From NCBI GenBank assembly GCA_021324295.1, contig JAJPJJ010000063.1:1-32408 (forward strand): 32,408 bases of DNA. The letters are read 5' to 3'. The position numbers were made by a program, and so were the translations under genes. Under the pieces are notes generated by a model. That model saw only the letters and a program-made list of their open reading frames with translations. It did no database searches and was not told the origin of the DNA. Positions within the stretch are counted from its first letter, which is position 1. Each line of letters starts with the position of its first letter. Positions 2,911 through 27,996 of this stretch are shown piece after piece. The stretch comes from Bacillota bacterium. Its GTDB lineage: Bacteria; Sysuimicrobiota; Sysuimicrobiia; Sysuimicrobiales; Segetimicrobiaceae.

Positions 2911-4176
2911 TCAGGAGCGCCAGGCGTCGCCGAGGAGCGAGGCGGCGGCCCGCTGGGCGGCGGCCAGCACCCGCTTGACGGGGACACCCCGGCGCCTCGC
3001 GAGCGCCCGGCACGCGTCGAACTCCGGGCTGACGTTGAGGACGCCGGCCGCGTCGCCGGCTACCTTGACCGGCACCGGGCCGAACTCGGTATCGACGTCC
3101 GCGATCCTCCGCTCCGCCGCCCACCGTTCCACCTCGTAGGCGCGCACGCCGATCGTCGTGGTCTCGGCCAGCAGGATGCCCACGAGCGCGCGCGCCGCCG
3201 CGGGCGCCGCGAGGACCCGCACAAGGTGCCCGGGCCGGCCCTTCTTCATCAACGCCGGCACCACGGCCACGTCGAGCGCGCCTGCTTCGAGCAGGCGCGC
3301 CGTGACGTACGGGTACAGCTGCGGGCTCATGTCGTCGATCGACGTCTCGAGCATCACGAGGCGCTCGGCCGGCGGCAGCGCGGGCCCGCGGTCCCGGACG
3401 CGCGGCCGGCCCTCCGGGGCGGCGACCCCGGCGCCTTCCGCGGGGCGATGCTGCGGCACGCCGTCGAGGGCGTCGCCGACGAACAACCGCAGCACGTTGG
3501 CGCGCGGAGGGTCGGCGTGTCCCGCCCCGGTGCCGACGCGCTGGAGCCGCATCCGCGGCAGCGGCCCCCAGCCACCCACCAGCCGGGAGAGCAGCGCGGC
3601 CCCGGTGGGGGTCAGCAGCTCCCCCTCCACGTCCCCCGCGTAGACCGGCATCCCGGTGAGGAGGGCGGCGGTCGCCGGAGGCGGCACCGGCACCGCGCCG
3701 TGTGCGATGCGGACCCATCCCCGGCCCACGTTGACCGGGGAGGCGACGAGATGCTGCAGGCCGAGCGCGCGCACGCCGGCGAGGGCGCCCACGACGTCCA
3801 CGAGCGTGTCGAGCCCGCCGAGCTCGTGCAGGTGCACCTGCTCGATCGGGACGCCGTGTACCTCCGCCTCGACCTCGGCCAGGCGCCGCAGCACCGCCGC
3901 CGCCTCCTCCCGCACCGGCTCGGCGACCGCGCTCGCCGCCAGGATCCCGGCAAGATGCGGGTACGGCCGCGCGGCGGGCGGGTCGCGCTCCTCGACTTCG
4001 ACGCGGACCGCGGGCACACCGCGCCTCTCCACCCGGCCGACGCGCACCCGCACCGGCACGGCGAGGCGCGCGACAACTTCCTCGAGCGCCGCCTCCGGCC
4101 AGCCGGCGCCGATGAGCGCTCCGAGCAGCATGTCGCCGCTCGCGCCGCTCGAGCAGTCAAGGTAGCCGATGCGCAT
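2911..4176 (-). CDS. larC: LarC, nickel-insertion protein for the nickel-pincer nucleotide
   Basis: LarC is a CTP-dependent cyclometallase that inserts nickel into the dithiolated pyridinium nucleotide, the last step of nickel-pincer cofactor synthesis. The N-terminus MRIGYLDCSSGASGDMLLGAL is the family signature. HLHELGGLDTLVDVVGA, GELLTPTGAALL and the C-terminal block from ETSIDDMSPQLYPYV through LMKKGRPGH and ETTTIGVR are also typical of LarC (formerly DUF111). The protein is 421 residues. In Lactobacillus plantarum larC is split into larC1/larC2 and needs a ribosomal frameshift; here the frame is continuous. The start at 4176 is chosen because the conserved domain begins there, although the frame is open for a further 54 codons upstream. 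It overlaps the larB end by 20 bases. Confidence 0.93.
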   Translation of the reverse strand: MRIGYLDCSSGASGDMLLGALIGAGWPEAALEEVVARLAVPVRVRVGRVERRGVPAVRVEVEERDPPAARPYPHLAGILAASAVAEPVREEAAAVLRRLAEVEAEVHGVPIEQVHLHELGGLDTLVDVVGALAGVRALGLQHLVASPVNVGRGWVRIAHGAVPVPPPATAALLTGMPVYAGDVEGELLTPTGAALLSRLVGGWGPLPRMRLQRVGTGAGHADPPRANVLRLFVGDALDGVPQHRPAEGAGVAAPEGRPRVRDRGPALPPAERLVMLETSIDDMSPQLYPYVTARLLEAGALDVAVVPALMKKGRPGHLVRVLAAPAAARALVGILLAETTTIGVRAYEVERWAAERRIADVDTEFGPVPVKVAGDAAGVLNVSPEFDACRALARRRGVPVKRVLAAAQRAAASLLGDAWRS

Positions 4177-5020
4177 CGGTCGCCGCGGGCGCGCCCCCAC
4201 CGTCGGATGTGCCTTCCCCGGCCTGCGGCGCGCCCTGCGACGCCCCGGGCGCGTCCCCCGTGGCTTCGGAGGCCGGGGCCGCACGGTTGATGATGGCGGC
4301 GAGATAGCCCGCGCCGAAGCCGTTGTCGATGCCGACAACGGCGACGCCCGGGGCGCAGGCGGTGAGCATCGTCAGCAGGGGCGCGATCCCGCCGAGGTGA
4401 GCGCCGTATCCCACGCTCGTCGGCACGCCGATCACCGGCGCGCGGGTGAGCCCCGCGACGACGGCGGGGAGCGCGCCGTCCATGCCCGCGACGACGACCA
4501 GCACGCGGGCGCGCTCGAGCAGCGCCCGCTCCGCCAGCAGGCGGTGGAGCCCGCTCACGCCGACGTCGAAGATGCGCTCGACGGCGGCCCCCATCGCCTC
4601 GGCCGTCCAGGCGGCCTCCTCCGCCACGGGACGGTCGCCGGTGCCGGCGGTCAGGACCCCGATGCACCCGGTGCGCTGCGAGGGCATCGGGCCGACGATC
4701 ACGAGGCGCGCCTCCGGCACGTGCCGGCAGTCCGGAAGCGCGCGGACGACCTGCGCCGCCACGTCGGGCGCGGCGCGCGTGACCAGCACCGGGCCCCCGG
4801 CGCGACGGAGCCGCCGGGCGATCTCCACGACCTGCTCCGGAGACTTCCCCGGGCAGTACACCGCCTCGGCGGCACCGCGGCGGAGCGGGCGGTGCGTGTC
4901 TACGCGGGCGAACCCGAGGTCCGCGAACGGAAGCCAGCGCAACGCCGAGATCGCGTCCGTGATCGAGGTCCGGCCGCTCCGGACGTCGTCGAGGAGGCGG
5001 CGCAGCGCGTCCTCGGTCAC
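4157..5020 (-). CDS. larB: LarB, nicotinate adenine dinucleotide carboxylase/hydrolase
   Basis: LarB carboxylates C5 of the pyridinium ring of nicotinic acid adenine dinucleotide and cleaves its phosphoanhydride, the first step of nickel-pincer nucleotide synthesis. The 287-residue protein starts with the helical LRRLLDDVRSGRTSITDAI, followed by ADLGFARVDTHRPLRRGAAEAVYCPGK. The C-terminal half is PurE-like: VLTAGTGDRPVAEEAA, DVGVSGLHR, VVVAGMDGALPAVVAGL, and a close that includes PTSVGYGAHLGGIAPLLTML. The last 35 or so residues (after AAIINRAAP) are an Ala/Gly/Pro-rich tail that looks disordered. The start is a GTG whose bases form a GTGA overlap with the larE stop, which indicates tight translational coupling. 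Confidence 0.93.
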   Translation of the reverse strand: MTEDALRRLLDDVRSGRTSITDAISALRWLPFADLGFARVDTHRPLRRGAAEAVYCPGKSPEQVVEIARRLRRAGGPVLVTRAAPDVAAQVVRALPDCRHVPEARLVIVGPMPSQRTGCIGVLTAGTGDRPVAEEAAWTAEAMGAAVERIFDVGVSGLHRLLAERALLERARVLVVVAGMDGALPAVVAGLTRAPVIGVPTSVGYGAHLGGIAPLLTMLTACAPGVAVVGIDNGFGAGYLAAIINRAAPASEATGDAPGASQGAPQAGEGTSDGGGAPAATDAHRLP

Positions 5021-5847
5021 GGGCGGGCCTCTTTCGTGGTCCCCGCCGCCAGCCCGGCGACCAACCGTCCCGACCGCAGCCCGTCCGGGGCGACCGACAC
5101 GGCGCGAAAGCCGATCGCCGCGAGCTGCGCCGTGATCTCCGGCAGCACGCGGGTCAGGCGCGGGATCTCGCCCACGGGGACCTCGATCCCGGCGCGCTCG
5201 CCGTAGTAGCGCACGCGCACCTCGGGAAAGCCGTACGCGTGGAGGACGCGCTCGGCCTGGTCGATCGCGGCCAGCGCCCCGACCGTCACCGGCGTGCCGA
5301 ACGGAAGGCGCGAGGCGAGGCAGGGCGACGCCGGCTTGTCCCACACCTCGAGCCCCCGCGCGCGGGCGAGCGCGCGGATCTCCGCCTTTGTGAGGCCGGC
5401 CTCCAGCAGCGGCGCGCGCACCGAGAGCTCCCCGGCCGCCCGCATGCCCGGCCGGTAGTCCCCCGTGTCGTCGGCGTTGGCGCCGTACACGACGTGTGCC
5501 AGTCCGCACGCCGTGGCGAGGCCGCGGAGCTCTGTGAACAGCGCGTGCTTGCAGAAGTAGCACCGCTGCGCGTCGTTGCGGAGGTAGCGCGGGTCGGCGA
5601 ACTCGCGCGTCCGGACCAGCGCGTGCCGCACGCCGAGACGCCGGGCGGTCCGTCGGGCGAGCACGAGCTCGCCGCGCGCGAGCGAGGGGGACACCGCGGT
5701 CGCCGCCACGCAGCGGTCGCCGAGCACGTCGTGCGCCGCGGCGAGCAGGTAGGCGCTGTCCACCCCGCCCGAGAACGCGACCACGGCGCCGCCCAGCTCG
5801 CGGAGCACCGCACGCAGCCGCGCCTGCTTCGCCGGGGCCACCGTCAT
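5017..5847 (-). CDS. larE: LarE, ATP-dependent sacrificial sulfur transferase
   Basis: LarE adenylates the carboxylates of the LarB product and converts them to thiocarboxylates. The 276-residue protein has the PP-loop SGGVDS at residues 26-31, RCYFCKHALF at 95-104, YGANADDTGDYRPG at 121-134 and WDKPASPCLASR at 169-180. C176 falls at the same number as the sulfur-donating Cys176 of L. plantarum LarE, so this looks like the sacrificial type, which gives up its own cysteine sulfur. C96 and C99 form an extra CxxC whose role I cannot assign; iron-sulfur LarE variants do exist. The start overlaps the larA stop as ATGA, and the stop overlaps larB as GTGA. Confidence 0.93.
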   Translation of the reverse strand: MTVAPAKQARLRAVLRELGGAVVAFSGGVDSAYLLAAAHDVLGDRCVAATAVSPSLARGELVLARRTARRLGVRHALVRTREFADPRYLRNDAQRCYFCKHALFTELRGLATACGLAHVVYGANADDTGDYRPGMRAAGELSVRAPLLEAGLTKAEIRALARARGLEVWDKPASPCLASRLPFGTPVTVGALAAIDQAERVLHAYGFPEVRVRYYGERAGIEVPVGEIPRLTRVLPEITAQLAAIGFRAVSVAPDGLRSGRLVAGLAAGTTKEARP

Positions 5848-7193
5848 CGGAAATCGCCCCGCGCGGGCCCGGCGGCCGCCGCCGCCGCAAGCGGCGGCAG
5901 GAGCGTGCCGTCCGCGGCGAACGACAGCGGCGCCGGCTCCGAGGCCGGACGGGCGTGCGGCTCGAGCGCGGACCCGAGCGACGTGGAGACGGCGACCTCG
6001 CCGAGCGCCAGCGTGTTGCGGATGTAGACGAGCCGCACCTGGCCCGGGCCCGGCCCGGGAGCCGTGAGGATCGCCGCGGCGATCGCGTCCCGGTCGGTCG
6101 CGAGGACCATGGGCAGGCGGACGGTCTCGGCGACCGTCGAGGTGAGCGCGTTCATGTACGTGGCGTGGAGGTCGATCGTTCCCAGCGCCCGCTGCGTGAT
6201 GAAGTCCGCGAGCCCGATCCCGTTGGCGTTCCCATGCGTCTCGGGGGTGAGGCCGAGGACCACGATCTTCCGGATCTGCGGCCCTCCGGACGCGTACGGC
6301 GTCGGATACCGGCCCGTAATGTTGGGGTCCATGCCGTCCCCGCTGACGTTCTTGCCGATCTCCTGCACGACGAGCACGTCGGCCGCGCGCACCGGCAGCC
6401 GGGCCATGAGGCGCCGCGCCCGGTCGAGCAGCGCGGGCTCCCGGTCCCGCCACGCCTCCGGCGGGAGCACTGCGATCTCGACCGGCTGGTCGTAGGCGTC
6501 CTCCACGACCGCGACCCCGAAGAGCAGCGGCGCCCGCCGCCGGACGATCTCCCACGCCTCGAGGAGGCGGTCGCCGAAGCCCGCGAAGCCGGGTGCGTGC
6601 AGCGACTGCGCGCCCCGCTGCTTGCCCAAGCCGATCGTGGCCATCTTGATGAGGCCGCTCTCGACCCGGCCCCGGAACGCCGTGTGGGGCTTCACGCGGC
6701 ACACGACGACGGCCGCGCCCGCCTCGTACGCCTCGCGGTCCCAGTACACGCCCGAGCCGTCGGCGAGCCGCCCGAGCTCGACGACGTCCATCGACGAGAC
6801 GACCGGCGCGCCGACCCGCGCCTCCGTGATGCCCAGGCTGGCCAGCACCTCGCGCTGGCCCTCCGCGGTCGCCCCGCCGTGGCTGCCCATCGCCGGGACG
6901 ATGACAGGCTCCGCGCCGCCCCGGCGCAGGGAGGAGACGACGGCCGCCGTGATCCGGTCGAGTGCGCCGATGCCTCGGCTGCCCACCGCGATGGCCACCC
7001 GCCGGCCCCGGGGAATGCGCCCCGCCGTCTCGAGCGCGCCGACCTGCCGGGCGACCTCCGCTTCCACGTCGCAGCGGCCCGGGGTCGGGAAGCGCTGCAC
7101 CACGCGGATCATCCGGGGAAACACGACCGGCGCGGGCGCGCGGATTCCCGCCACCGCAACCGGTCTCGAATGGCGCGCGCCCGCGTCGTTCAC
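5844..7193 (-). CDS. larA: LarA-family nickel-pincer racemase/epimerase, substrate unknown
   Basis: The N-terminal lactate-racemase domain (DUF2088) and C-terminal domain fill this 449-residue protein. Counting from the GTG, H105 (GSHGGAT), H170 (KPHT), K183 (SGLIKM) and H199 (QSLHAPGF) fall almost exactly on L. plantarum LarA His108, His174, Lys184 and His200: catalytic bases, the lysine that holds the pincer, and the nickel ligand. VVQEIGKNVSGDGMDPN and the close of that block resemble the broad LarA-homologue group rather than lactate racemase proper. The enzyme should therefore interconvert stereoisomers of some 2-hydroxy acid, but the substrate is open. GTG at 7193 is preferred over ATG 7268 because GGGAGG lies 5 bases before it. 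Its maturation genes larE, larB and larC follow directly. Confidence 0.85.
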   Translation of the reverse strand: MNDAGARHSRPVAVAGIRAPAPVVFPRMIRVVQRFPTPGRCDVEAEVARQVGALETAGRIPRGRRVAIAVGSRGIGALDRITAAVVSSLRRGGAEPVIVPAMGSHGGATAEGQREVLASLGITEARVGAPVVSSMDVVELGRLADGSGVYWDREAYEAGAAVVVCRVKPHTAFRGRVESGLIKMATIGLGKQRGAQSLHAPGFAGFGDRLLEAWEIVRRRAPLLFGVAVVEDAYDQPVEIAVLPPEAWRDREPALLDRARRLMARLPVRAADVLVVQEIGKNVSGDGMDPNITGRYPTPYASGGPQIRKIVVLGLTPETHGNANGIGLADFITQRALGTIDLHATYMNALTSTVAETVRLPMVLATDRDAIAAAILTAPGPGPGQVRLVYIRNTLALGEVAVSTSLGSALEPHARPASEPAPLSFAADGTLLPPLAAAAAAGPARGDFR

Positions 7194-7218
7194 GGCGACC
7201 TCCCGCTGCGGCCCGCGA

Positions 7219-7701
7219 TCAGAGCTTGTAGCCGATCTTCCGGAGCAGATCGCGGCGAGCGGCGACATCCCGCGGGGCCTCGACGCCGAGCGGGGGCTGG
7301 CCGTCTATGACCCCGAGGATCCCCCGGCCCTGCTCCGTCTCGGCGACGACCACCTCCAAGGGGTTCGCCGTCGCGCAGTAGATCCGGCAGACCTCCGGAA
7401 CCTGCCGCACCGCGGGCAGGACGTTGATCGGGTAGACGTTTCCGAGGAAGATCACGAACACGTGCCCGCAGCCAATCGCCTGCGCATTCCGGGCCGCAAG
7501 GGACACCAGCTCGGGCTCCGTGCCGGTGGTGCGCACGAGGCGCGGGCCGCTCGACTCGCAGAACGCCACGCCGAACCGGATCCCCGGACAGGCGCCAACG
7601 AGCGCCTCGTGCAGGTCCTCGACGGTCTTGATGAAATGCGCCTGGCCGAGGATCAGGTTGAGCCCCGCGGGGTTCTCGACCCGCACCACGTGGATCTCCA
7701 T
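7219..7701 (-). CDS. Adenosine-specific kinase family protein (PF04008/DUF355)
   Basis: This 160-residue single-domain protein starts MEIHVVRVENPAGLNLILGQ. It continues with HFIKTVEDLHEALVGACPGIRFGVAFCESSGPRLVR and GHVFVIFLGNVYPINVLPAV, then ATANPLEVVVAETEQGRGILGVIDG. This is the compact family first described in archaea as an adenosine-specific kinase; its real cellular role in bacteria is uncertain. It is the first gene of the minus-strand block, 25 bases upstream of larA, with a GGAGG Shine-Dalgarno 8 bases before its ATG. Leading a nickel-pincer operon is suggestive because the pathway begins from an adenine dinucleotide and releases AMP, but that link is inference. Confidence 0.85.
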   Translation of the reverse strand: MEIHVVRVENPAGLNLILGQAHFIKTVEDLHEALVGACPGIRFGVAFCESSGPRLVRTTGTEPELVSLAARNAQAIGCGHVFVIFLGNVYPINVLPAVRQVPEVCRIYCATANPLEVVVAETEQGRGILGVIDGQPPLGVEAPRDVAARRDLLRKIGYKL

Positions 7702-8042: not shown

Positions 8043-11000
8043 GTGGCCACGCTCACGCGCCGTGACTTCCTGAAGTTGACGGGGGTGAGCGTGGGAACGC
8101 TTGCCCTCTCGGAGCTGGGCTTCGACCTCGCCCGCGCTGCGGAGGTCCGCCAGACCCTGCGCATCGCCGGGGCGACCCAGTCCCACTCGATCTGCCCCTA
8201 CTGCGCCGTCGGGTGCTCGCTCATCGCATACACGCGGAAGGAGCCCGACGGGAGCGTCAAGCTGCTGCAAATCGAAGGCGACCCCGATAGCCCCGTCAAC
8301 GAAGGCCGGCTGTGCCCCAAGGGGGCCACGGCGATGCAGCTCGCGACCTCGAACCGCCGCGTGGAGCAGCCCCTCTACCGGGCCCCGGGCGCGTCGTCCT
8401 GGCAGAAGGTGTCGTGGGACTTCGTGCTCGACAAGCTCGCGCGCAACATCAAAGCCACCCGTGACCGGACCTTCGTCACCACGGACGCCGCGGGACACGT
8501 CGTCAACCGCTGCGAGGGGATGGCGTTCGCCGGCGGGGCGGCGTTCAGCAGCGAGGAAGGGTACTTCGCCGTCAAGGTGATGCGCGGCCTGGGGGTCGTC
8601 TTCATAGAACAGCAGGCCCGGGTCTGACACGGCCCCACGGTGGTCAGTTTGGCCGCCACGTTCGGACGAGGGGCAATGACAAACCACTGGAGGGACATCA
8701 AGAACAGCGACCTGATCCTGATCAACGGAGCCAACCCCGCGGAAGCCCACCCGGTCGGCTTCCAGTGGTTCATGCGGGCGAAGCTGGACCCCCAGCGCGG
8801 CCCCGGCAACGGAGGCGGGGCCAAGATCATCCACGCCGATCCGCGGTTCTCTCGCACGTCGGCGGTGGCGGACATCTACCTCCGGATCCGCACCGGCACC
8901 GACGTCGCGTACTTCGGCGGGCTGATCAACTACGTCCTCCAGCACAACCTCCACCACGCCGAGTACGTCACGCACTACACGAACGCGTCCTTCATCGTCA
9001 AGGAGGGGTACGGCTTCACGGACGGCCTCTTCGCCGCGTACGACCCGGAGCACCGGGCGTACGACACGAAGGCCTGGGGCTACGAGCTCGACGAGCAGGG
9101 GTTCGCCAAGCGCGACATGACGCTCCAGCACCCCCGGTGCGTGTTCCAGCTCATGAAGCAGCACTACGCCCGCTACACCCCGGAGATGGTCTCCCGGATT
9201 ACCGGCATCCCGCAGGACGACTTCCTGAAGGTGGCCCAGCTCGTGGGCCAAATGGGCCGGCCCGACAAGGTGATGACGATCGTCTACGCGGTCGGCCTCA
9301 CCCACCACACGACCGGCGGTCAGCTGATCCGGTCGGGCGCCGTGCTGCAGCTCCTGCTCGGCAACATCGGCCGGCCGGGCGGCGGGATGAACGCCGAGCG
9401 CGGGCACGCCAACATTCAGGGGAACACCGACCACGCGATTTCGTGGGAGATCCTGCCCGGGTATCTCGCCATCCCGTCTCCGGGCGAGCGCACCCTGGAC
9501 GACTACGTCCGCGAGAAGGCGCCCAAGAAGCTGGACCCGAACGCGTGGAACTTCTTCGGCACCAACTACCGCAAGTTCATGGTGAGCCTGCTCAAGGCGT
9601 GGTACGGCGACGCCGCGACCAAGGAGAACGACTTCGCCTTCAACTACATCCCGAAGCCGGCCGGCAACTCCTCGTGGATGTCGATCTACGACCAGGCGCT
9701 CAAGGGGAAGATGGAGGGAGTCATCCTCTCCGGGATGACCGCAACGAGCATCGGCCCGGACAGCAACCAGGTCCTGCAGGCGCTCGCAAACCTCAAGTGG
9801 CTGGTCGTGATGGACGCCTTCCCCACGACCAGCTCGGAGTTCTGGCACGGGCCGGGGATGGACCCGGCCAAGATCCAGACCGAGGTCTTCCTGCTGCCGT
9901 GCACGCACTGGATCGAAAAGGACGGCACGTTCGTCAACAGCGGCCGGTGGGTCCAGTGGAAGGACCAGGTGATCCCGCCCCAGGGAGAGGCGCGGCACGA
10001 TCACTGGATCCTCGCCGACCTGTTCCACCGCGTGAAGCAGCTCTACGAGCGCGAGGGCGGGGCGTTCCCGGACCCGGTCATGCACCTCACGATGAACTAC
10101 AAGGACCCGCTCCGGCCGGAGCTGGACGAGATCGCGCAGGAGATCAACGGGAAGAACCTCGTGACGGGCAAGCGCCTCGCGACCTTTGCCGCGCTCAAGG
10201 ACGACGGCACCACGATCGCCGGTGACTGGATCTACACCGGGCACTACCCGGAGTCCGGCAACCTCACCAAGCGCCGCGAGGGCGTCCAGGATCCCCAGAA
10301 GAACGACCCCACCGGCATGGGCTTCTACCCCAACTGGGCGTGGAGCTGGCCGCTCAATCGCCGGGTGATGTACAACCGTGCCTCGGCGGACCTCCAGGGC
10401 CGGCCCTGGGACCCCAAGCGTCCCGGGATCCAGTGGAACGGCCACCGCTGGGTGGGCGACGTGCCCGACTACCCGCCGACGATGAGCCCGTCGGATCCCA
10501 AGGCATGGCTGCCGTTCATCATGACCGGGGAGGGCACGGGCCGCCTGTTCAGCAGCACGATGATCGACGGGCCGTTCCCGGAGCACTACGAGCCGGTGGA
10601 GTCGCCGATCGAGAACCCGCTCCACCCCCGGGTGTCCTCGTCCCCGGTGGCGTTCCTCTACGACAAGGCCGCCGGCCGGCCGAACCGGTTCGGCACGGCC
10701 GAGGAGTTCCCGATCATCGCCACCACCTACCGGCTCACCGAGCACGAGCACTACATCACGCAGCAGGTCCCGCACCTGGTGCAGCTCCAGCCCGAGGCGT
10801 TCGTCGAGCTGCCGGAGGGCCTGGCCCGCGAGAAGGGGATCAAGACCGGCGATATGGTGCGCGTGCGGTCGAAGCGCGGCGAGATCCGGGTGCGGGCGAT
10901 CGTCACGCGCCGGCTGGGTCAGCTCGACCTCGGCGGCACGAAGGTCTACCAGATCGGGATCCCCATCCACTGGGGGTTCGTCGGCGTGTCGGCCGAGCTC

Positions 11001-11117
11001 TTCCCGGAGAAGTCGCAGCACTGGCTGGCCAACTCGCTCACGCCGTTCGTCGGGGACGCGAACGCCAGGACGCCCGAGTTCAAAGCGTTCCTGGTCAACG
11101 TCGAGAAGATGGCATGA
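8043..11117 (+). CDS. fdnG: Selenocysteine-containing formate dehydrogenase, catalytic alpha subunit (FdnG/FdoG type)
   Basis: This is the molybdenum/tungsten bis-MGD enzyme that oxidises formate to CO2. The reading frame is 1024 residues with an in-frame TGA at codon 195 (8625-8627), read as selenocysteine: RV-Sec-HGPTV, then FGRGAMTNHW, matches E. coli FdnG (Sec196). Stopping there would leave an inactive fragment. A Tat signal is visible (TRRDFLKLTG, residues 5-14), so the enzyme is exported. C51, C54, C58 and C91 form the [4Fe-4S] site. The C-terminal molybdopterin-binding domain is complete (QPEAFVELPEGLAREKGI and onward). The start is GTG with GGGAGG about 8 bases upstream. It overlaps fdhE by ATGA. 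Selenocysteine machinery (selA, selB, selC, selD) is not in the window. Confidence 0.95.
8625..8657 (+). promoter_or_regulatory. Selenocysteine UGA codon plus bacterial SECIS hairpin
   Basis: The UGA (8625-8627) is followed 11 bases later by a 7-bp stem: GGTGGTC at 8639-8645 pairs with GGCCGCC at 8651-8657, including two G-U pairs, around the loop AGTTT (8646-8650). Position, stem length and the AGU loop closely match the E. coli fdnG SECIS, whose loop is AGUCU. In bacteria this element lies inside the coding sequence and is bound by SelB. Confidence 0.85.
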
Positions 11118-11986
11118 CGTCGCAGGCGGTCGCCGCGGACCGCTGGGCGGAGCGCCGCCGTCGCGCCGCGGATCTCGCGGAGCGGTGGCCGTTCGCGGCG
11201 GAGGTGCTCGGCTTCTACGCCGCGCTCGTCGCGGCGCAGGCGGAGATCTACGAGGCGGCGCGGGCGGAGCTCGACGACCCGGCCCGGGCGGCCGCCTACG
11301 CAGCCTCGCGTGCGCTGCCCGTGGTCAGGGACGTGACCCGGAGCCACGGGCCGGAGAAGCTGGCGCGGGCGGTGGCCGGGGATACGTCGGCGCGGGGGGA
11401 GGACGTGGTGAGGAGCTGGCTCGCGGGCCGGGACCTCCCCCCGGTGGACCGGTACCTGGCGCGGGCGGCGGCCGGGCCGGTGCTCGAGGCGCTGGGGGAG
11501 GAGGCCGGGCGCGCGTGCGAGGGGCTGCGGGACGACCGGCACTGCCCGCGCTGCGGCGGGCCGCCACAGCTCAGCGTGCTCGCCCAGTCCGAGGACGACT
11601 TGGTGGCGCCCCGGCGCTCCCTCGAGTGCGCGCGGTGCGCGTGGCGCTGGCCATACGCGCGCCTCGTGTGCGCGGCGTGCGGGGAGCTCGACACCCGCCG
11701 GCTGCCGATCTTCGCAGAAGAAGGCACGATGCTCGGCGAGGCGACCGGAGCGGTGGTGCGGGGAGCGCGCGACGTGCCCACCGCCCCTCTGGGGACCCAG
11801 ACCCCGCGCTTCCCGCACCTCAGCATCCACGCGTGCCGGAGCTGCGGGCGCTACCTTCTGAACGTCGACCTCGGGCGAGACCCGCGGGCGGTCCCCGTGG
11901 TCGATGAGATCGCCGCGATCCCGCTCGGCCTGTACGCGGCCGAGCACGGCTTCGTGAAGATCGTGCCCAACCTCATGGGCCTCTGA
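11114..11986 (+). CDS. fdhE: FdhE, formate dehydrogenase accessory protein
   Basis: FdhE is a cytoplasmic, iron-binding rubredoxin-like accessory protein required for activity of exported formate dehydrogenases. This 290-residue copy has the typical helical N-terminal half, then four CxxC pairs: C144/C147 (HCPRCGGPP), C172/C175 (ECARCAWRW), C186/C189 (VCAACGE) and C241/C244 (ACRSCGRYLLNVDL). The segment from PRFPHLSIHACRSCGRYL to VPVVDEIAAIPL is characteristic of the family. The start ATG overlaps the stop codon of the catalytic gene (ATGA), so the frame continuing far upstream is a shadow. It sits between the catalytic and ferredoxin subunits, an order consistent with cotranslational maturation. 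Confidence 0.9.
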   Translation: MTSQAVAADRWAERRRRAADLAERWPFAAEVLGFYAALVAAQAEIYEAARAELDDPARAAAYAASRALPVVRDVTRSHGPEKLARAVAGDTSARGEDVVRSWLAGRDLPPVDRYLARAAAGPVLEALGEEAGRACEGLRDDRHCPRCGGPPQLSVLAQSEDDLVAPRRSLECARCAWRWPYARLVCAACGELDTRRLPIFAEEGTMLGEATGAVVRGARDVPTAPLGTQTPRFPHLSIHACRSCGRYLLNVDLGRDPRAVPVVDEIAAIPLGLYAAEHGFVKIVPNLMGL

Positions 11987-12001: not shown

Positions 12002-12832
12002 ATGCCACAGGCGGTCGGGTTCTTCACCGATACCAGCGTCTGCATCGGCTGCAAGGCCTGCGAGGTCGCCTGCAAGGAGTGGAACCAGCTCAAGGGCAAC
12101 CCGCCCGAGTTCCGCGGGGACAGCTTCGACAACACGGGCAAGCTGGACGCCCAGAACTGGCGCCACGTCGCGTTCTTCGACAAGGTGCCGGAGGGGCCGG
12201 TGGCCACGGGGAACGGCCAGGCCTGGCTGATGTTCTCGGACGTCTGCAAGCACTGCACGCACGCGGCCTGCATGGAGGTGTGCCCGACCGGCGCGATCAT
12301 CCGCACCGAGTTCGACACGGTGTTCATCCAGCAGGATGTGTGCAACGGATGCCGCGACTGCATCGCCGCCTGCCCCTTTGGCGTGATCGGCTTCAGCGAG
12401 GAGACCGGCACTGTGCACAAGTGCACCTTCTGCTACGACCGGCTGCAGAACGGCCTGACGCCGGCGTGCGCCAAGGTGTGCCCGACCCAGGCCATCCAGT
12501 TCGGCCCGCTCGAGGAGATGCAGAAGAAGGCGGATGCGCGGCTCGCCCAGTTGCACGGCCAGGGCCAGACGCAGGCCCGGCTGTACGGGCGCGACGACAA
12601 GGTCTACGGCGGGCTCAAGGCGTTCTTCCTCCTGATGGACAAGCCGGAGGTGTACGGGCTCCCCAACGAGCAGAACGCGGTCCTGCCGCGGCGCAACAAC
12701 CGGCCCGGCTACCTGGGAGCGTTCGCGACCGCGGTCCTCGGCGTGCTGGCCGGGCTCGTCGCGTTCCGCGAGCGGGGCGAGGTGCGGCGGGCCGAGGAGG
12801 CCCTGCGGACCGGCAGGACCGACAAGGCGTAG
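12002..12832 (+). CDS. fdnH: Formate dehydrogenase beta subunit, four [4Fe-4S] ferredoxin-like protein
   Basis: This is the electron-transfer subunit linking the catalytic subunit to the membrane subunit. Sixteen cysteines fall into four clusters in 276 residues: C14/17/20/24, C82/85/90/94, C114/117/120/124 and C141/144/156/160. Motifs are CIGCKACEVACKEWN, CKHCTHAACMEVCPTGAI and CNGCRDCIAACPFGVIGF. This is the FdnH/HybA/PsrB layout. A single C-terminal hydrophobic helix at about residues 236-255 (YLGAFATAVLGVLAGLVAF) would anchor it, as in FdnH. There is no signal peptide, so it is presumably exported together with the Tat-bearing alpha subunit. GAGAGGAGCGGGAGG lies just before the ATG. It lies 15 bases after fdhE. 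Confidence 0.93.
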   Translation: MPQAVGFFTDTSVCIGCKACEVACKEWNQLKGNPPEFRGDSFDNTGKLDAQNWRHVAFFDKVPEGPVATGNGQAWLMFSDVCKHCTHAACMEVCPTGAIIRTEFDTVFIQQDVCNGCRDCIAACPFGVIGFSEETGTVHKCTFCYDRLQNGLTPACAKVCPTQAIQFGPLEEMQKKADARLAQLHGQGQTQARLYGRDDKVYGGLKAFFLLMDKPEVYGLPNEQNAVLPRRNNRPGYLGAFATAVLGVLAGLVAFRERGEVRRAEEALRTGRTDKA

Positions 12833-12889: not shown

Positions 12890-13834
12890 ATGGCAGAGCA
12901 CTTCGTTAAGCCTCCTCACTGGGAGTGGTACATCCTCGCCTACTTCTTCCTCGGCGGGCTCACAGGCGGGCTGTACGCGCTCGGCACGATGCTGAGGTTG
13001 TGGGGCACGGCGGAGGACGAGGCGGCGGCGAAGGTCGCCTTCGTGGCGGCCTTCCCCTTGCTGCTGGTGTGCCCGGTCCTGCTCGCGCTCGACCTCGGAC
13101 AGCCGGCGCGCTTCTGGCACATGCTGATCGATACGACCCCCGGCCGCGGCGGCATCGCCTTCAAGTACTGGTCGCCGATGTCGATCGGGAGCTGGGTGCT
13201 CCTCGTCTACGGCGCGTTTGCGTTCCTCTCGTTTCTCGAGGCGCTCGCGCTGGACGGGCGCCTGCGCGGGGGCCTCGGCAGCGCGATCGTCCGCGCGCTC
13301 GCGGGATCCGGCGGCCGGGCCTTCAACATCATCGGCGCCATCTTGGGCCTGTTCGTCGCCTCCTACACCGGGGTGTTGCTCAGCGTGTCCAACCAGCCGA
13401 TCTGGAGCGACGCGTGGGCGCTCGGCGGGCTGTTCCTCGCCTCGGGGTTGAGCGGAGCGGCGGCGCTGCTCGCGTGGCTGACGCGGTACCGACGGGGGGC
13501 GGAGGCCACCGAGGCACGCCTTGCGCGGGCGGAGCGGTACTTCGCGACCCTGGAGCTGGTGCTGATCGTCGTGTTCTTCGTGAACGTGGCCGGAGCCGGC
13601 ATGCTGTCGCGCGCGCTCGCCGGTCCGTGGGCCGCGGCGTGGGCGCTCGTGGTGGTGAGCCTTATCCCGTCGCTCGCAGCCCGCGGCGGTCCGAGCATCC
13701 AGGTGGCGTCGACCTCCGGGCCGGCCGCGGTGGCGCGGGCCGCAGGCGGCGTCTCGCATGCGGCCGTGCTCGTGAGCGTCCTCGTGGGCATGCTGCTCAT
13801 GCGGTTCGTCGTCATCTTCAGCGCCCAGTTCTGA
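12890..13834 (+). CDS. nrfD: NrfD/PsrC-type membrane subunit of formate dehydrogenase
   Basis: This 314-residue integral membrane protein begins MAEHFVKPPHWEWYILAYFFLGGLTGGLYALG, a recognisable NrfD/PsrC start. It has about eight or nine hydrophobic helices. ALDLGQPARFWHM and SPMSIGSWVLLVYG are also typical of the family. Such subunits bind quinone and take electrons from a four-cluster ferredoxin subunit; they lack the haem-binding design of FdnI-type cytochrome b. So the enzyme here uses the haem-free NrfD exit rather than the E. coli FdnI exit. It lies 57 bases after the beta subunit with a GGGAGGG Shine-Dalgarno, and ends the structural part of the operon. Direction of electron flow and possible proton coupling cannot be read from sequence. 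Confidence 0.9.
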   Translation: MAEHFVKPPHWEWYILAYFFLGGLTGGLYALGTMLRLWGTAEDEAAAKVAFVAAFPLLLVCPVLLALDLGQPARFWHMLIDTTPGRGGIAFKYWSPMSIGSWVLLVYGAFAFLSFLEALALDGRLRGGLGSAIVRALAGSGGRAFNIIGAILGLFVASYTGVLLSVSNQPIWSDAWALGGLFLASGLSGAAALLAWLTRYRRGAEATEARLARAERYFATLELVLIVVFFVNVAGAGMLSRALAGPWAAAWALVVVSLIPSLAARGGPSIQVASTSGPAAVARAAGGVSHAAVLVSVLVGMLLMRFVVIFSAQF

Positions 13835-14082: not shown

Positions 14083-15861
14083 ATGGAGGTTGAGGAGGCG
14101 CTGCGCCGACTCCTGGAGGAGGCCGCACCGCTGCCGGCCGAGCACGTCTCCGTGTGGGAGGCCGGCGGTCGCGTCGCGGCGCTCGACGTCGCGGCGCCGC
14201 GGCCGGTTCCCCATTTTCGGCGCGCCGCGATGGACGGCTACGTGTGCCACGATGCCGATCTGCGCGGCGCGTCCTCCGAGAGGCCGGTGCTCCTGCGCAT
14301 CACCGGCGCGGCGCAGATGGGCGACCCGCCCGGCCCGGGCCCGGATCGCGGCGAGGCGTGGGCGATCGCGACCGGCGGGCCGATGCCGGCCCGCGGCGAC
14401 AGGGTGCTGCCGCTGGAAGACGGCCGGCTCGACGGGGATCGCCTGCGCATCACGCGACCTGCGGCGGGCAAGGCGAATATCGCCCTCCCCGGCGAGGAGA
14501 TCCGCCCGGGCACCGTCCTCGCGACCGCCGGCCGGCCAGTGCCGGCGGTCGCGGCCGGCGCGCTCGCGGCGTGCGGCATCGGCCGCCTCAGCGTCTACCG
14601 GCGGCCGCGCATCGCGCTCGTCGCGACCGGCAGCGAGCTCGTGGAGGCGCCGGGCCGCGAGCGGATCGATCGCGAAGACGCCGCGGATGGGGCTCCACCG
14701 GCCGGCCGCGTGATCAACAGCAACTCGATCACGCTCACCGCCGCGCTCCGGGCGGCAGGCTACCGCGCCGACTACCGGGGGATCATCCCCGACCGGCCGG
14801 ACCGGCTCCGCGATGCGTTCGCCGCGCTCGCCGACGGCCACGACGTGGTCCTCTCCACCGGCGGCGTCTCGATTGGCCGGCACGATGCGGTGCACCGCAC
14901 GTGGCTCGACCTCGGCGCCCGGCGCGTCGCCGGGCGTCTCAACCTCAAGCCGGGAGGCCCGTTCTTTGCCGGGAAGATCGGGGAGACGTGGGCGGTCGGC
15001 CTGTCGGGCACCCCGGTGGCGTGCCTGGCGGCGTTCCACCTCCTCGTTCTCCCGCTCCTCCGACGTCTCGAGGGCAGGCGGTGCTGCGTCCGCCCGCTCC
15101 GCCGGGCGCGGCTGACCGCCGCCGTGCCGCAGCCGGCCGACCGGCTGCGTGCGCTCTGGGCGTGCGCCCGCACGGAGGCCGCAGCGCTTCCGGAACTGGA
15201 GTTGCTCACGGGACAACCGGAGGGGACCGTGGCGTCGCTCCTCCGGGCCAACGCGCTCGTCCTGCTGCCCCGGGGGACGCCTGCGCTGCCGCCCGGGTCC
15301 CGCGTCGCGGCGCTCATGCTCGACGGCGAGGAGGACCGCAACGAGCTCGCGATCGCGCCGCCCGTGGCGGGGCCGATCATCGTGGGGGTCGTGGGCGCAT
15401 CGGGCAGCGGCAAGACCACGGTGATCGAGGGAGCGCTGCGGCGCCTCTGCGCCGAGGGCGTTCGTGCCGCCGCGGTGAAGCACGCGGCCCACGGGTTCGC
15501 GGTGGACCGTCCGGCGAGCGACAGCGCCCGCTTAGCCCAGGCCGGCGCCCGCATCGTCGTGCTGGCCGGCCCCTCCGAGACGGCGATTCGGATCGCCGCG
15601 GGGACCTGCGGCCCGGATCTCGCCGTCCTCCTGGCCGAGGACATCGCCGTCCGGCTCTGGGGCGCGCCCCCGGACCTCTTGCTCGTCGAAGGCTTCAGCC
15701 ACGCGGGACGGCCGGTGATCGCGGTCGGCGAGCAGAAGCCCGCGACCGCGGCGGGCGAGTGCTGGGCGCATGTGCCCGCGGTCTCCGGGATGCCGGCCGC
15801 CGAACTCGCGGGGGAGATCGCGCGCGTGGCCGACGTCCTGCGTGCGCGCCTCGTCCGTTGA
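14083..15861 (+). CDS. moeA: MoeA-MobB fusion: molybdopterin molybdenumtransferase with MGD-synthesis adapter domain
   Basis: Two cofactor-assembly domains share one 592-residue chain. Residues 1 to about 410 are MoeA, which inserts molybdate into adenylated molybdopterin: AMDGYV, ATGGPMPARGD, NIALPGEEI, VATGSELV, NSNSITL, STGGVSIGRHDAV and LKPGGPFFAGK with LSGTPVA. Residues from about 430 are MobB, a GTP-binding adapter for molybdopterin guanine dinucleotide formation: P-loop GASGSGKTT at 438-446, AAVKHAAHGF, DSARLAQAGA and DLLLVEGFS. The fusion suggests direct handover of Moco toward bis-MGD for the neighbouring formate dehydrogenase. No MobA partner is in the window. ATG 14083 is chosen over GTG 14041 because the domain starts there. 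The gene follows a 248-base gap, 13835-14082, in which I see nothing definite. Confidence 0.92.
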   Translation: MEVEEALRRLLEEAAPLPAEHVSVWEAGGRVAALDVAAPRPVPHFRRAAMDGYVCHDADLRGASSERPVLLRITGAAQMGDPPGPGPDRGEAWAIATGGPMPARGDRVLPLEDGRLDGDRLRITRPAAGKANIALPGEEIRPGTVLATAGRPVPAVAAGALAACGIGRLSVYRRPRIALVATGSELVEAPGRERIDREDAADGAPPAGRVINSNSITLTAALRAAGYRADYRGIIPDRPDRLRDAFAALADGHDVVLSTGGVSIGRHDAVHRTWLDLGARRVAGRLNLKPGGPFFAGKIGETWAVGLSGTPVACLAAFHLLVLPLLRRLEGRRCCVRPLRRARLTAAVPQPADRLRALWACARTEAAALPELELLTGQPEGTVASLLRANALVLLPRGTPALPPGSRVAALMLDGEEDRNELAIAPPVAGPIIVGVVGASGSGKTTVIEGALRRLCAEGVRAAAVKHAAHGFAVDRPASDSARLAQAGARIVVLAGPSETAIRIAAGTCGPDLAVLLAEDIAVRLWGAPPDLLLVEGFSHAGRPVIAVGEQKPATAAGECWAHVPAVSGMPAAELAGEIARVADVLRARLVR

Positions 15862-15995
15862 CGCTCCCGGCGGCCGATGCTACGATGGGTGCAGCAGCAC
15901 GGCCCTTTCCCCACGACAGCCTGTCCGCCGCGTTGACCCGGATGGCCGGGAGGGCGCCCGCGGTCGCCGCGGAGCGCAGCGGAGGTGACGGCGGG

Positions 15996-16883
15996 GTGGC
16001 GACCCACCTCAAGCAGCCCGCGGCGGCGCGCACCAGCACCGCGCGGCGCCGCGTCGCGCAGGTCGAGGACGGCGCGGCGCGCGCCCGCGAGGATGTGCTG
16101 GCGGTCGAGGAGCCCCTCGAGATCCGGCTCCTCCCCCCGGACGGCGGCCCGCTCACCCGGGTCGCCGTCACGATGCGCACCCCCGGGCACGACTTCGAGC
16201 TCGCCGCCGGGTTCCTCTACACGGAAGGCATCCTCCAGCACCCGGACCAGATCCGATCGATCAGCTACTGCACGGATCCCGCGCTCGACAGCGCGCAGCA
16301 GTACAACATCGTCAACGTCGTCCTCCGGTCCGGGACGCCGTACGACCCGGAGCGGCTCCGGCGCAACTTCTACACGACGTCCAGTTGCGGCGTCTGCGGG
16401 AAGGCCTCGATCGAGGCGATCCACGTGCGCGGTATCTGCCCGGTCGCCGACGACGCCCTCGTCGTGGATGCGGGGACGATCGGCCGGCTCGGTGAGGGAC
16501 TGCGACAATCCCAGGCGCTCTTCGCCAAGACCGGCGGCCTGCACGCTGCCGGCCTGTTCGACGCCGGCGGCACCGTGCTGGCGACCCGGGAAGATGTCGG
16601 GCGCCACAACGCCGTCGACAAGCTCGTCGGCTGGGCCTTCCTCGGGCGGCAGCTTCCGCTGCGGCGGCATATGATGATGGTAAGCGGGCGGGCGAGCTTC
16701 GAGATCATGCAGAAGGCCGCCGCCGCCGGCATCCCGATCGTCGCCGCGGTCTCGGCGCCGTCGAGCCTGGCGTGCGACGTCGCGGAGGCGTTCGGCATGA
16801 CCCTCGTGGGCTTTGCACGGGGCGCCCGGTTCAGCATCTATGCCGGCGCCCACCGGATCCGGTTCTCTCATCCCGGCACATGA
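15996..16883 (+). CDS. fdhD: FdhD, formate dehydrogenase sulfurtransferase
   Basis: FdhD carries sulfur from IscS to the bis-MGD cofactor before it enters formate dehydrogenase. The protein has EEPLEIRL, TMRTPGHDFELAAGFLYTEGI, SSCGVCGKASIE with the sulfur-carrying pair C131 and C134 (C121/C124 in E. coli), FAKTGGLHAAGLFD, REDVGRHNAVDKLVG and SGRASFEIMQKAA. All are family hallmarks. The frame opens at ATG 15885, but GTG 15996 has a near-perfect GGAGGTGA 7 bases before it and gives the usual length (295 residues), so I chose it; the extra 37 residues look like low-complexity leader. The gene directly follows moeA-mobB and precedes the second molybdoenzyme. Confidence 0.92.
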   Translation: MATHLKQPAAARTSTARRRVAQVEDGAARAREDVLAVEEPLEIRLLPPDGGPLTRVAVTMRTPGHDFELAAGFLYTEGILQHPDQIRSISYCTDPALDSAQQYNIVNVVLRSGTPYDPERLRRNFYTTSSCGVCGKASIEAIHVRGICPVADDALVVDAGTIGRLGEGLRQSQALFAKTGGLHAAGLFDAGGTVLATREDVGRHNAVDKLVGWAFLGRQLPLRRHMMMVSGRASFEIMQKAAAAGIPIVAAVSAPSSLACDVAEAFGMTLVGFARGARFSIYAGAHRIRFSHPGT

Positions 16884-20928: not shown

Positions 20929-22128
20929 TCACTCCTGGCACGCGAGAACGTTCCGCGCGGCGCCCTCTCCAAAGACCCCGGACCGCTCCGGCTCCGTGGA
21001 AGCCGCCGGCGAGGCGTGGATCGGCCCCGGACGGCTCCGCAGGGACGTCACACCCCGGCCGCGCTGGACGGCGAGGATCTCGGAGGCGATGCTGAGGGCG
21101 ATCTCTTCGGGCGACTCCGCGCCCAGGTCCAGGCCGACCGGCCCGTAGAGCCGGGAGCGCTGCGCATCGGCCAGCGTGATCCCCTCGCTCGCGAGCTCCC
21201 GGAGCAGCCGCTCGGTGCGGGCGCGCGGGCCCAACAGGCCGATGTAGCGCGCGGGCGTGCCGAGCAGGCCGCGGAGGATCGTCCGGTCGTGGAGGAAGTT
21301 GTGGGTCATCACGACCACGAACGTCTGCCGATCGATGCGCACCGCCCGCGGGATCTCCTCGTCGTCGACGCGGACGACCTCGTCGGCCTCGGGAAACCGC
21401 TCCCGCGTCGCGAACGCCGGCCGGCTGTCCGCGACCGTCACCCACCATCCCAGCTCGTGCGCCAGCCTGACGAGCGGCCGAGCGTCGTGGCCCGCCCCGC
21501 ACACGAGCAGCGGAAGGGGCGGCGCCACGACCTCGATGAACACCTCCCCGGCACCCCCGGGCGTCTCCACCGGCAGCACCCCAGACCGGCCCGCCGCGAT
21601 GTGCGCGCGCGACGCGGCCACGACGCGGGCCGCGACGGCGGGGTCGCCGAGCTGCCCCCGCGGCTCGCCGTCTTCCGGCACGACGATGCGCGCGCCCGGG
21701 ACCGGCCCGCCGGGCGGTGATGCGATCACGGTCGCCACGGCGAGGGTGCGTCTGTGCGTGATCGTGTCCTGGAGCAGGGCCAGCAGGTCCACGCCCGCGT
21801 CGGCGGAGATCCGCTCGACGAACACGTCGATCGCGCCGTTGCAGCCGAGCCCGAGCCCCCACACCGCGTCGTCGTCGGAGGTCAGGTCGTAGGTGAGCAG
21901 GCGCGGCTGGCCCGTCGCCATCACGTCCCGCGCCACCTCGGCGACGTCGCCCTCCAGGCACCCGCCGCTGATCGATCCCACCGTGCTCCCGTCGGCGCGG
22001 ATGAGCAGGCGCGCTCCCTCCCGGCGGTAGGTCGAGCCGCGAACCCGCACGACGGTCGCGAGGGCCGCGCGCTCGCCGCGGGCCCGCCCCTCGGTCGCCG
22101 CGCTCAGAATATCTCGGATCTCCTTCAT
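20929..22128 (-). CDS. xdhC: XdhC/CoxF-family Moco maturation protein
   Basis: XdhC-type proteins bind MCD Moco, promote its sulfuration and hand it to the apo-hydroxylase. The 399-residue protein has the N-terminal XdhC/CoxI domain (LATVVRVRGSTYRREGARLLI, VGSISGGCLEGDVAEVA, TYDLTSDDDAVWGLGLGCNGAIDVFVE) and a C-terminal Rossmann domain. The latter has VCGAGHDARPLVRLAHELGW, DSRPAFATRERFPEAD, VVVMTHNFLHDRTILRGLL and YIGLLGPRARTERLL. The last 40 or so residues are a Pro/Ser-rich tail. Its ATG overlaps the coxE stop (ATGA) and mocA follows closely. In cox gene clusters the equivalent is CoxF/CoxI. Confidence 0.92.
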   Translation of the reverse strand: MKEIRDILSAATEGRARGERAALATVVRVRGSTYRREGARLLIRADGSTVGSISGGCLEGDVAEVARDVMATGQPRLLTYDLTSDDDAVWGLGLGCNGAIDVFVERISADAGVDLLALLQDTITHRRTLAVATVIASPPGGPVPGARIVVPEDGEPRGQLGDPAVAARVVAASRAHIAAGRSGVLPVETPGGAGEVFIEVVAPPLPLLVCGAGHDARPLVRLAHELGWWVTVADSRPAFATRERFPEADEVVRVDDEEIPRAVRIDRQTFVVVMTHNFLHDRTILRGLLGTPARYIGLLGPRARTERLLRELASEGITLADAQRSRLYGPVGLDLGAESPEEIALSIASEILAVQRGRGVTSLRSRPGPIHASPAASTEPERSGVFGEGAARNVLACQE

Positions 22129-23474
22129 CGGTTCGTCCCTCCGGATCCGCCGACCGCGCGGCCCGCGTGGCGTCCCGGCGCCGGCCCGGCCGCGCGCGGC
22201 AGCGGGTGTCGGCGGCGCGGCTCACGGAGATGCCGCTCCAGCTCGCGCAGGCTGCGGACGTTGTGCGCGGAGGCGAAGACGTCGACAAACGGCAGCGCCG
22301 CGCTCATGCCTTGGGTCACCGGCTCGTAGCCGGGGCTGCCCAGCAGCGGGTTGAGCCAGATCAGCCTGCCCGCGCGCGCCCGCAGCGTGCGCATCGCGGA
22401 GGTCAGGAGATCGATGTCGCCGGTGTCCCACCCGTCGCTGCAGATGATCACGATCGTCCGCGGATCCACGAGGCGCCGCCCGTATTCCTCGTTGAACGTG
22501 TGAAGACACGCGCCGATCTTCGTTCCGCCCGACCAATCGGGCACCCGGCGGGACGCCTCCTGGAGCGCCTGCTTGATGTCCCGCTGGGCGAGCGCGTCGG
22601 TGACCCGGGTGAGCTGCGTGCTGAAGAGGAAGGACTCGACCCGTCCAAGGGTCCCCTGCAGCGCGTAGATGAACTGCACGAGGAAGCGGCTGTAGACGTC
22701 CATCGAGCCGCTGACGTCGCACAGGAGGACCAGCTTGGCCTTGCGGATCTTCCGGCGGCGCCACACGAGCGGCGCGGGATCCCCCCCGTATTGCAAGCTG
22801 CGCCGCATCGTCCGCCGCAGGTCCACGAGGGAGCCCCGGCGCGCCGGGCGCATCCGCCGGGAGAGGCGCGTCGCGATGCGGCGGGCGATCAAGAGGATCA
22901 GCTCCGAGATCGCCTCCAGGTCGTCGGCCGAGAACGCGGCGAAGTCCTTCCGCGTCCGGATCTCCGCCGGGCTGTACGCGGGAACCGCCCGCTCGTCCTC
23001 CTCCGGCGCCCCCTCGCCGGACCACTCGGTCACGGATAGCTGCCCCTGCGGCTCTCCTCCGGGGATCGCGCCGGGCGGCCGCTGCGTCCCGCCGCCGTCC
23101 TCCGGCCGGGCGGAGCCGGGCGCCGGCGCCGGTCGGCTCCAGAACCGCTCGAACTCCTCGTCGAACACCGGGAGATCCTCGGCGCGCGCGCACAGAATCG
23201 TCCGGAGCACGAGCCGGACCTCTCCGCGGTCCGCCAGGTTCGCCTCCCCGAGGCCTCTCAGCGCGAGCTCGATCTCGGCCGGCCCGACGAGCAGGCCGCG
23301 GCTCCGGAGGCGGCGTCCGAAGAGGGTGACGTTGGCCACGAGGTTCCCCGGGCGCGCCTGCGCGGCTCCGGCCCGCAGGGGCCCGTCCGACGCCCCCGGA
23401 GGCCCGGAGGCCGCGTCAGCGGGCCCGCGGGAGCTGGGCGGCAAGCTGGCCGACCCGCTCAGGCGTCCATCCAT
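22125..23474 (-). CDS. coxE: CoxE-like VWA-domain protein
   Basis: CoxE works with the AAA+ ATPase CoxD in inserting or maturing the Mo active site of Cox-type hydroxylases. From the ATG at 23474 the protein is 449 residues. The conserved region begins about residue 45 (LVANVTLFGRRLRSRGLLVGP). A Pro/Gly/Glu-rich linker covers about 115-170, then RTMRRSLQYGGDPAPLVWRRRK, and a C-terminal VWA domain with MIDAS DVSGS at 253-257, FSTQLTRVT and SDGWDTGDIDLL. The start is uncertain: this ATG overlaps coxD by 59 bases, and a later GTG near the conserved domain could be used instead. The frame is also open upstream inside coxD, which looks like shadow. Confidence 0.88.
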   Translation of the reverse strand: MDGRLSGSASLPPSSRGPADAASGPPGASDGPLRAGAAQARPGNLVANVTLFGRRLRSRGLLVGPAEIELALRGLGEANLADRGEVRLVLRTILCARAEDLPVFDEEFERFWSRPAPAPGSARPEDGGGTQRPPGAIPGGEPQGQLSVTEWSGEGAPEEDERAVPAYSPAEIRTRKDFAAFSADDLEAISELILLIARRIATRLSRRMRPARRGSLVDLRRTMRRSLQYGGDPAPLVWRRRKIRKAKLVLLCDVSGSMDVYSRFLVQFIYALQGTLGRVESFLFSTQLTRVTDALAQRDIKQALQEASRRVPDWSGGTKIGACLHTFNEEYGRRLVDPRTIVIICSDGWDTGDIDLLTSAMRTLRARAGRLIWLNPLLGSPGYEPVTQGMSAALPFVDVFASAHNVRSLRELERHLREPRRRHPLPRAAGPAPGRHAGRAVGGSGGTNR

Positions 23475-24387
23475 CGCCACTCGCCGCATCCACCGCGTCG
23501 AGGATAGGGCGCACGTAGTGGGCGCGGATGCGGACCAGGTCCTCCTGATCCTTGCACAGGCACCCGAGCGTCTCCTCGACCGCACCCGGGTCCAGGTGCT
23601 CGTAGTGCAGGGCCATCAGCGCCGCGCTCCAGTCGAGCGTCTCCGCGATCCCCGGCACCTTCGCCAGCGGGACGGTGCGCACGAGCTGCATGAAGCCACA
23701 GATCTGGCGCGCGAGGCGCTCGTTGATCTCGGGCACCTTCGCGCGCACGATCGTCAGCTCTTTCTCAAACGAGGGGTAGTCGATCCACAGGTACAGACAC
23801 CGGCGGCGCAGGGCATCGCTGAGCTCGCGCGTCCGGTTGCTCGTGAGGACGACGTGCGGAATGTGTCGTGCCCGCACCGTGCCGATCTCGGGGATGCTCA
23901 CCTGGAAGTCGGAGAGCACCTCGAGGAGAAACGCCTCGAACTCCTCGTCGGCCCGATCGACCTCGTCGATGAGCAGCACCGGGGCCCGCTCCGCGGTGAT
24001 GGCCTGCAGCAGCGGGCGCTTCAGGAGGAACGGCTCGCTGAAGATGACCTGCTCCTTCTCCTCGACGGGCCGCCCGGTCGCCTCCTCCAGCTTGATCCGG
24101 AGCATCTGCCGCTGGTAGTTCCACTCGTACAGTGCCGTGTGCACGTCCAGCCCTTCGTAGCACTGCAGCCGGATGAGATCGGTGCCGATCGCCTGGGCCA
24201 TCACCTTGGCGACCTCGGTCTTGCCGACCCCGGCCGCTCCCTCGATCAGCAGCGGCTTGTGCAGCACAACGCTCAAGTGGATCGCGGTCGCGACCTCGCG
24301 ATCGGCGACGTAACCCTGCTGACGCAGCGCCTCGGCGATGTTCGGGATGCCTCGAAACTGCTCGGGCTGGGTCGGTGCCGCTGCCAT
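23416..24387 (-). CDS. coxD: CoxD-like MoxR-family AAA+ ATPase
   Basis: This 323-residue MoxR-type ATPase is thought to drive remodelling or active-site assembly of Cox-type hydroxylases together with a VWA partner. Walker A is IEGAAGVGKTEVAK (about residues 49-62), Walker B is VLLIDEVDRADEEFE (about 136-150), sensor-type residues are in HVVLTSNRTRELSDAL, and the arginine-rich RRRCLYLWIDYP follows. The C-terminal helical lid starts at about residue 220. The start is the ATG at 24387 with AAGGAGTGA about 8 bases upstream. It is the first gene of the operon and is preceded by a leader containing three 35-bp tandem repeats, after a possible TACAAT -10 element. Confidence 0.93.
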   Translation of the reverse strand: MAAAPTQPEQFRGIPNIAEALRQQGYVADREVATAIHLSVVLHKPLLIEGAAGVGKTEVAKVMAQAIGTDLIRLQCYEGLDVHTALYEWNYQRQMLRIKLEEATGRPVEEKEQVIFSEPFLLKRPLLQAITAERAPVLLIDEVDRADEEFEAFLLEVLSDFQVSIPEIGTVRARHIPHVVLTSNRTRELSDALRRRCLYLWIDYPSFEKELTIVRAKVPEINERLARQICGFMQLVRTVPLAKVPGIAETLDWSAALMALHYEHLDPGAVEETLGCLCKDQEDLVRIRAHYVRPILDAVDAASGDGWTPERVGQLAAQLPRAR

Positions 24388-24442
24388 GCGCGACGGTCAC
24401 TCCTTCTCGTTGAGCCGTCCACGGGGCGACGCTCGGGGCCGC

Positions 24443-24554
24443 GCGCCGCTTCGTCAAAGCCCGCGGGCGGCGCTCACGCGCCGCTTCGTCAAAGCCTACG
24501 GGCGGCGCTCACGCGCCGCTTCGTCAAAGCCTACGGGCGGCGCTCACGCGCCGC
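24443..24554. repeat. Three tandem 35-bp units with alternating self-complementary arms
   Basis: Three full copies start at 24443, 24478 and 24513, plus the first 7 bases of a fourth at 24548. Each unit is GCGCCGC, then 17 bases beginning TTCGTCAAAG, then GCGGCGC, then TCAC. Copies 2 and 3 are identical; copy 1 differs at two bases. GCGCCGC and GCGGCGC are exact complements, so hairpins can form within a unit (17-base loop) or between units (TCAC tetraloop). Thirty-five is not a multiple of three, so this is not a peptide repeat. The array lies in the likely 5' leader of coxD. Confidence 0.85.
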
Positions 24555-24557
24555 TCC

Positions 24558-24592
24558 ATTGTAACATAACGCTCCCGCCCGAGAAACGTTTC
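24558..24592 (-). promoter_or_regulatory. Candidate coxD operon promoter with overlapping palindrome
   Basis: On the minus strand TACAAT (24558-24563) would place the transcription start near 24550, at the first arm of the repeat array. The -35 region is weak (TTTCTC at 24581-24586, 17-base spacer). A 10-base perfect palindrome GAAACGTTTC (24583-24592) covers it and could be an operator. This is one of the few AT-containing stretches in the region. Confidence 0.4.
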
Positions 24593-24702
24593 CCCGCGCA
24601 GCGACGCGGACGCCGGCCCGGCGAAGGCGCACGGCTAACGCCCTGTCGCCGGACGAGGACCGTGATGCGCGGGGACGGGCGGGACGGCGACGCGACACCT
24701 GC

Positions 24703-25083: not shown

Positions 25084-25173
25084 CGCGCCGTGGGATTCGC
25101 CGCCGCCGCCGGGGGCCCTGGCGCGGAGCCGCTATAGGAATCGCCGGGCACGCCAGCGAAGGCTAATCTCCCC

Positions 25174-27947: not shown

Positions 27948-27996
27948 GACCACCGCGGCGTCGACAGACGGCCGCGCCGGGCGGCGGGGACGGGCT

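Follow-up and report, generated by a model that had tools for sequence, protein, structure and literature searches.

FdhA is, with SelD, the most widespread bacterial selenoprotein (PMC1794560), and its selenocysteine (Sec) lies in a listed UHxP motif (PMC13188914). In Escherichia coli, FdnG, the alpha subunit of formate dehydrogenase N, carries this residue at position 196 (PDB 1KQF), and in the annotated genome codon 196 of fdnG is a TGA in the context QARV*HGPTV. The fdnG hairpin has a GUC triloop 19 nt from the UGA and a stem of 5 contiguous base pairs. The general bSECIS model allows an upper stem of 4-16 bp, a loop of 3-9 nt with a G in the first two loop positions, and a distance of 16-37 nt from the UGA (PMC13188914).

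The window studied here is a whole contig (C26; 32,408 nucleotides) of a draft genome of 4.02 Mb (129 contigs, 96% complete, 4.7% contaminated); since the draft consists of 129 contigs, contig membership depends on binning. It encodes a homolog of FdnG that aligns end to end with the E. coli protein (E=0) and shares its Tat signal. The features on which the argument rests are the following.

8043-11117, plus strand: fdnG-type formate dehydrogenase alpha gene, 1024 codons with the predicted Sec at 195; stop codon TGA at 11115-11117
8622-8680, plus strand: match to the full Rfam SECIS_3 model (RF01989), 58.5 bits, E 2.5e-13, model positions 1-59
8625-8627, plus strand: predicted selenocysteine codon UGA, codon 195
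8639-8657, plus strand: putative apical SECIS hairpin GGUGGUCA-GUU-UGGCCGCC with an 8-bp stem, from fold, homologue alignment and covariation

The TGA at 8625-8627 is the sole interruption of the alpha frame and is followed by 829 open codons. Standard ORF calling breaks the gene into two pieces, 8043-8627 and 8640-11117, just as the original prediction, made from the sequence alone, had anticipated; automatic gene calling will split the formate dehydrogenase of this lineage in the same way. Translated across the TGA, the product matches TIGR01553 (formate dehydrogenase-N alpha; curated cut-off 814.2) with 1336.8 bits over positions 2-1009 of 1009, which places it in this family at full length, and it shows a Tat signal (RRDFLK) together with 4Fe-4S and molybdopterin domains. 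The same prediction had matched codon 195 with Sec196 of E. coli FdnG, its active-site selenocysteine, and the alignment with PDB 1KQF agrees: the non-standard residue X in 'qarvXhgptv' falls on residue 195 of the window's protein, in the identical context QARV-U-HGPTV. The UGA of the UHxP motif (V-U-HGPT) is aligned with a known Sec, as belongs to an FdhA selenoprotein. We conclude that TGA 195 is almost certainly read as selenocysteine (probability about 0.97), and that the alpha gene is an ordinary representative of a very common, known selenoprotein family.

To assemble homologs, we scanned named bacterial and archaeal genomes with search patterns that excluded the TGA site and retrieved 80 loci. 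All 80 carry TGA at the codon 195 site, as does a second FdhA of the same genome, located on contig C14 (81/81 in total), and none carries Cys. The records are named Chloroflexi, Dormiibacterota, Eremiobacterota, Actinobacteria, Acidobacteria and Betaproteobacteria. Among named relatives, two genomes recorded as 'Terrabacteria group bacterium ANGP1', now Ca. Segetimicrobium genomatis (phylum Sysuimicrobiota) in the NCBI taxonomy, stand closest; their FdhA (L057, L070) is 86-88% identical to that of the window and shows the same TGA and hairpin, with differences at the sequence level only. Within the same family, a tRNA-Sec was found in 11 of 12 genomes, and every FdhA match covering the site carries one TGA.

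Directly downstream of the UGA, the hairpin can be drawn as an 8-bp stem with a GUU loop 19 nt from the UGA, or as the 7-bp stem with an AGUUU loop described in the original prediction, in which case the distance is 18 nt. In the 8-bp form, the stem (8 bp), the loop (3 nt, beginning with G) and the spacing (19 nt) all fall inside the bSECIS limits. Compared with E. coli fdnG, the triloop is GUU rather than GUC at the same 19 nt, and the stem is fully paired over 8 bp as opposed to 5 contiguous bp. A covariance-model search had been proposed as a check, and its outcome was divided: the SECIS_3 match is significant (E 8e-13 when the search is run genome-wide), but its score lies 4.5 bits below the curated gathering score of 63, and an Rfam scan of the window at the gathering threshold returned no matches, SECIS_3 emerging in E-value mode. 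The hairpin probably works like SECIS_3, though it is no member by Rfam's own cut-off. The fold energy of the single sequence was not significant (z -0.88) and was therefore left out of the evidence; the significance of the hairpin comes from the SECIS_3 match, the TGA in 81/81 homologs and the covariation.

Three codons in the SECIS alignment are invariant or close to it. The Thr codon is ACG in 81/81 readable sequences (80 of the 81 homologs plus the window), and in the same set the Ser codon that follows is AGT in 80/81 and the Leu codon TTG in 74/81; these codons are kept although most of the homologue genomes are GC-rich. Pair 18-30 links a Val codon to an Ala/Gly codon, each at its third position, and occurs as G-C, C-G, G-U and A-U. 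It is paired in 48 of 55 distinct sequences versus 27.3 +/- 2.9 under synonymous-codon reshuffling (0/5000 shuffles reached 48), and a pair-count test on a 38-sequence subset gave 93.1% paired versus 85.1%, with both sides changed in 15 cells versus 3.0 in shuffles, both tests being somewhat inflated by shared ancestry. Because the hairpin covaries at paired synonymous positions, protein coding cannot account for the covariation, and four pair types at such sites are hard to explain other than as RNA pairing. The alignment offers a clean example of an RNA structure kept through synonymous codons.

By analogy with E. coli, UGA 195 would be decoded as Sec by a SelB-GTP-Sec-tRNA(Sec) complex, with SelB binding the hairpin directly downstream, and the inserted Sec would ligate the active-site Mo/W as in FdnG. 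The product would then be the catalytic, Sec-containing subunit of a formate dehydrogenase that is exported by the Tat route, is anchored in the membrane and presumably oxidizes formate.

Decoding of this kind calls for SelA, SelB, SelD and tRNA-Sec, which the original prediction had expected elsewhere in the organism. All four genes were located.

C106:122441-124309: selB
C106:124453-125543: native selA, adjoining selB
C106:111446-111536: tRNA-Sec with anticodon UCA (selC)
C90:137275-138198: selD

As these genes are present in the window's own draft genome, the expectation was borne out, and the genome has the Sec-decoding trait (selA, selB, selC, selD), although the assembly shows a one-base frameshift in the native selA. 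SelD has an in-frame TGA of its own at the active-site position (MVACAG-U-ASK). These results support the use of selenocysteine in a lineage that has been little studied and lies close to Ca. Segetimicrobium (Sysuimicrobiota), and a literature search for selenocysteine with CSP1-3 found nothing; given that FdhA is so widespread a selenoprotein, the finding itself changes little.

Two further observations concern the surroundings of sel genes. ARAGORN called a 93-nt 'tRNA-Ala (cgc)' at C106:110079-110171 (L030:2080-2172), 1.3 kb from the tRNA-Sec, which is unusually long and probably a false call. In a relative of the same family (G007, C34:5051-14119), a second SelA, SelB and tRNA-Sec share a stretch of about 9 kb with a Sec formate dehydrogenase, a set that looks like a transferable Sec-FDH cassette.

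The only unusual thing we saw is a second selA-selB pair. This intact but divergent pair sits at the end of contig C42 (C42:39209-42869, L028), with a PemK/MazF-like ORF between the two genes and a TnpB C-terminal fragment adjoining at the contig end. Its SelB shares about 45% identity with the SelB of the family, versus about 68% for the C106 SelB. All eleven family genomes have an aminotransferase 82-89% identical to one on C42, so the contig is probably of this lineage; the selA-selB pair was probably acquired, or else the contig end is chimeric. No copy of the C42 SelB was found in 241 other genomes at E <= 1e-100, and a plasmid search gave partial matches only, at <60% identity.

This pair opens a different route to the same residue, in which the native selA would be truly broken and the horizontally acquired selA-(pemK-like)-selB of C42 would supply the Sec-tRNA, the decoding or both, and so maintain Sec insertion into FdhA and SelD; a foreign copy would then have taken over part of the Sec pathway. 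The frameshift of the native selA and the intact pair on a contig that carries a gene of this lineage speak for it. Against it, the frame of the native selA (C106 about 124,900; L005:3964, minus strand) is split by the loss of one C from a CCCCC run in a draft assembly, for which an error in assembly or sequencing is the simplest reading; the frame is otherwise conserved, each of the 30 SelA regions checked from relatives stays in one frame at this site, and a search of the genome for a second tRNA-Sec found none. We consider this route unlikely.

The draft state of the assembly and that same one-base indel in another of its genes could suggest that TGA 195 is a sequencing error, or a nonsense mutation in a broken or mis-assembled gene. 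Against this, the same codon is TGA in 81/81 homologs from independent assemblies, and 829 open codons and the covarying SECIS lie behind it; the conserved TGA in practice refutes such an accident. Least probable of all is a general reassignment of TGA, in frame here, to a sense meaning (Trp or Gly) in this organism: the alpha gene itself ends with a TGA that overlaps the next start (ATGA), several neighbours also end in TGA, and a tRNA-Sec(UCA) and a SECIS are present, so genome-wide recoding was rejected on the TGA stops of the same operon.

Downstream of the alpha gene, whose stop is shared with the fdhE-like start, the window continues with genes for partner subunits and maturation factors.

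11114-11986, plus strand: fdhE-like accessory gene; the Pfam models for the central and C-terminal parts of FdhE match weakly (E 2e-4 and 7e-4), short of the Pfam cut-off
12002-12832, plus strand: FdnH-like 4Fe-4S beta subunit, TIGR01582 170.7 bits (below the curated cut-off of 334.7), Fer4 domains
12890-13834, plus strand: NrfD-type membrane subunit, PF03916 76.2 bits
14041-15861, plus strand: moeA-mobB fusion for molybdenum cofactor maturation, by profile match
16035-16883, plus strand: fdhD, formate dehydrogenase sulfurtransferase, start approximate, NF001943 311.2 bits
16772-19360 (open frame), plus strand: second molybdopterin enzyme, FdhF/YdeP family, TIGR01701 620.6 bits

The NrfD-like protein stands in place of cytochrome b556 FdnI, the membrane partner in E. 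coli. The fdhD gene is the C-terminal part of a longer open frame (14154-16883), of which NF001943 covers residues 628-903. In the FdhF/YdeP-family enzyme, alignment places a Cys (RICHAP) at the Sec position. As judged from its gene content, the operon fits a Tat-exported, quinone-linked formate dehydrogenase, with a predicted electron path.

Other metal-related genes flank the operon. On the minus strand, the region 2911-7268 of the window encodes a LarC-like nickel insertion protein, an AIR-carboxylase-domain protein (LarB-like) and a weakly LarA-like ORF, which suggests that a gene cluster for the nickel-pincer cofactor adjoins the formate dehydrogenase operon. On the other side, positions 20929-29555 hold genes for molybdenum hydroxylases of the xanthine dehydrogenase/CO dehydrogenase type and an XdhC-like maturation factor.
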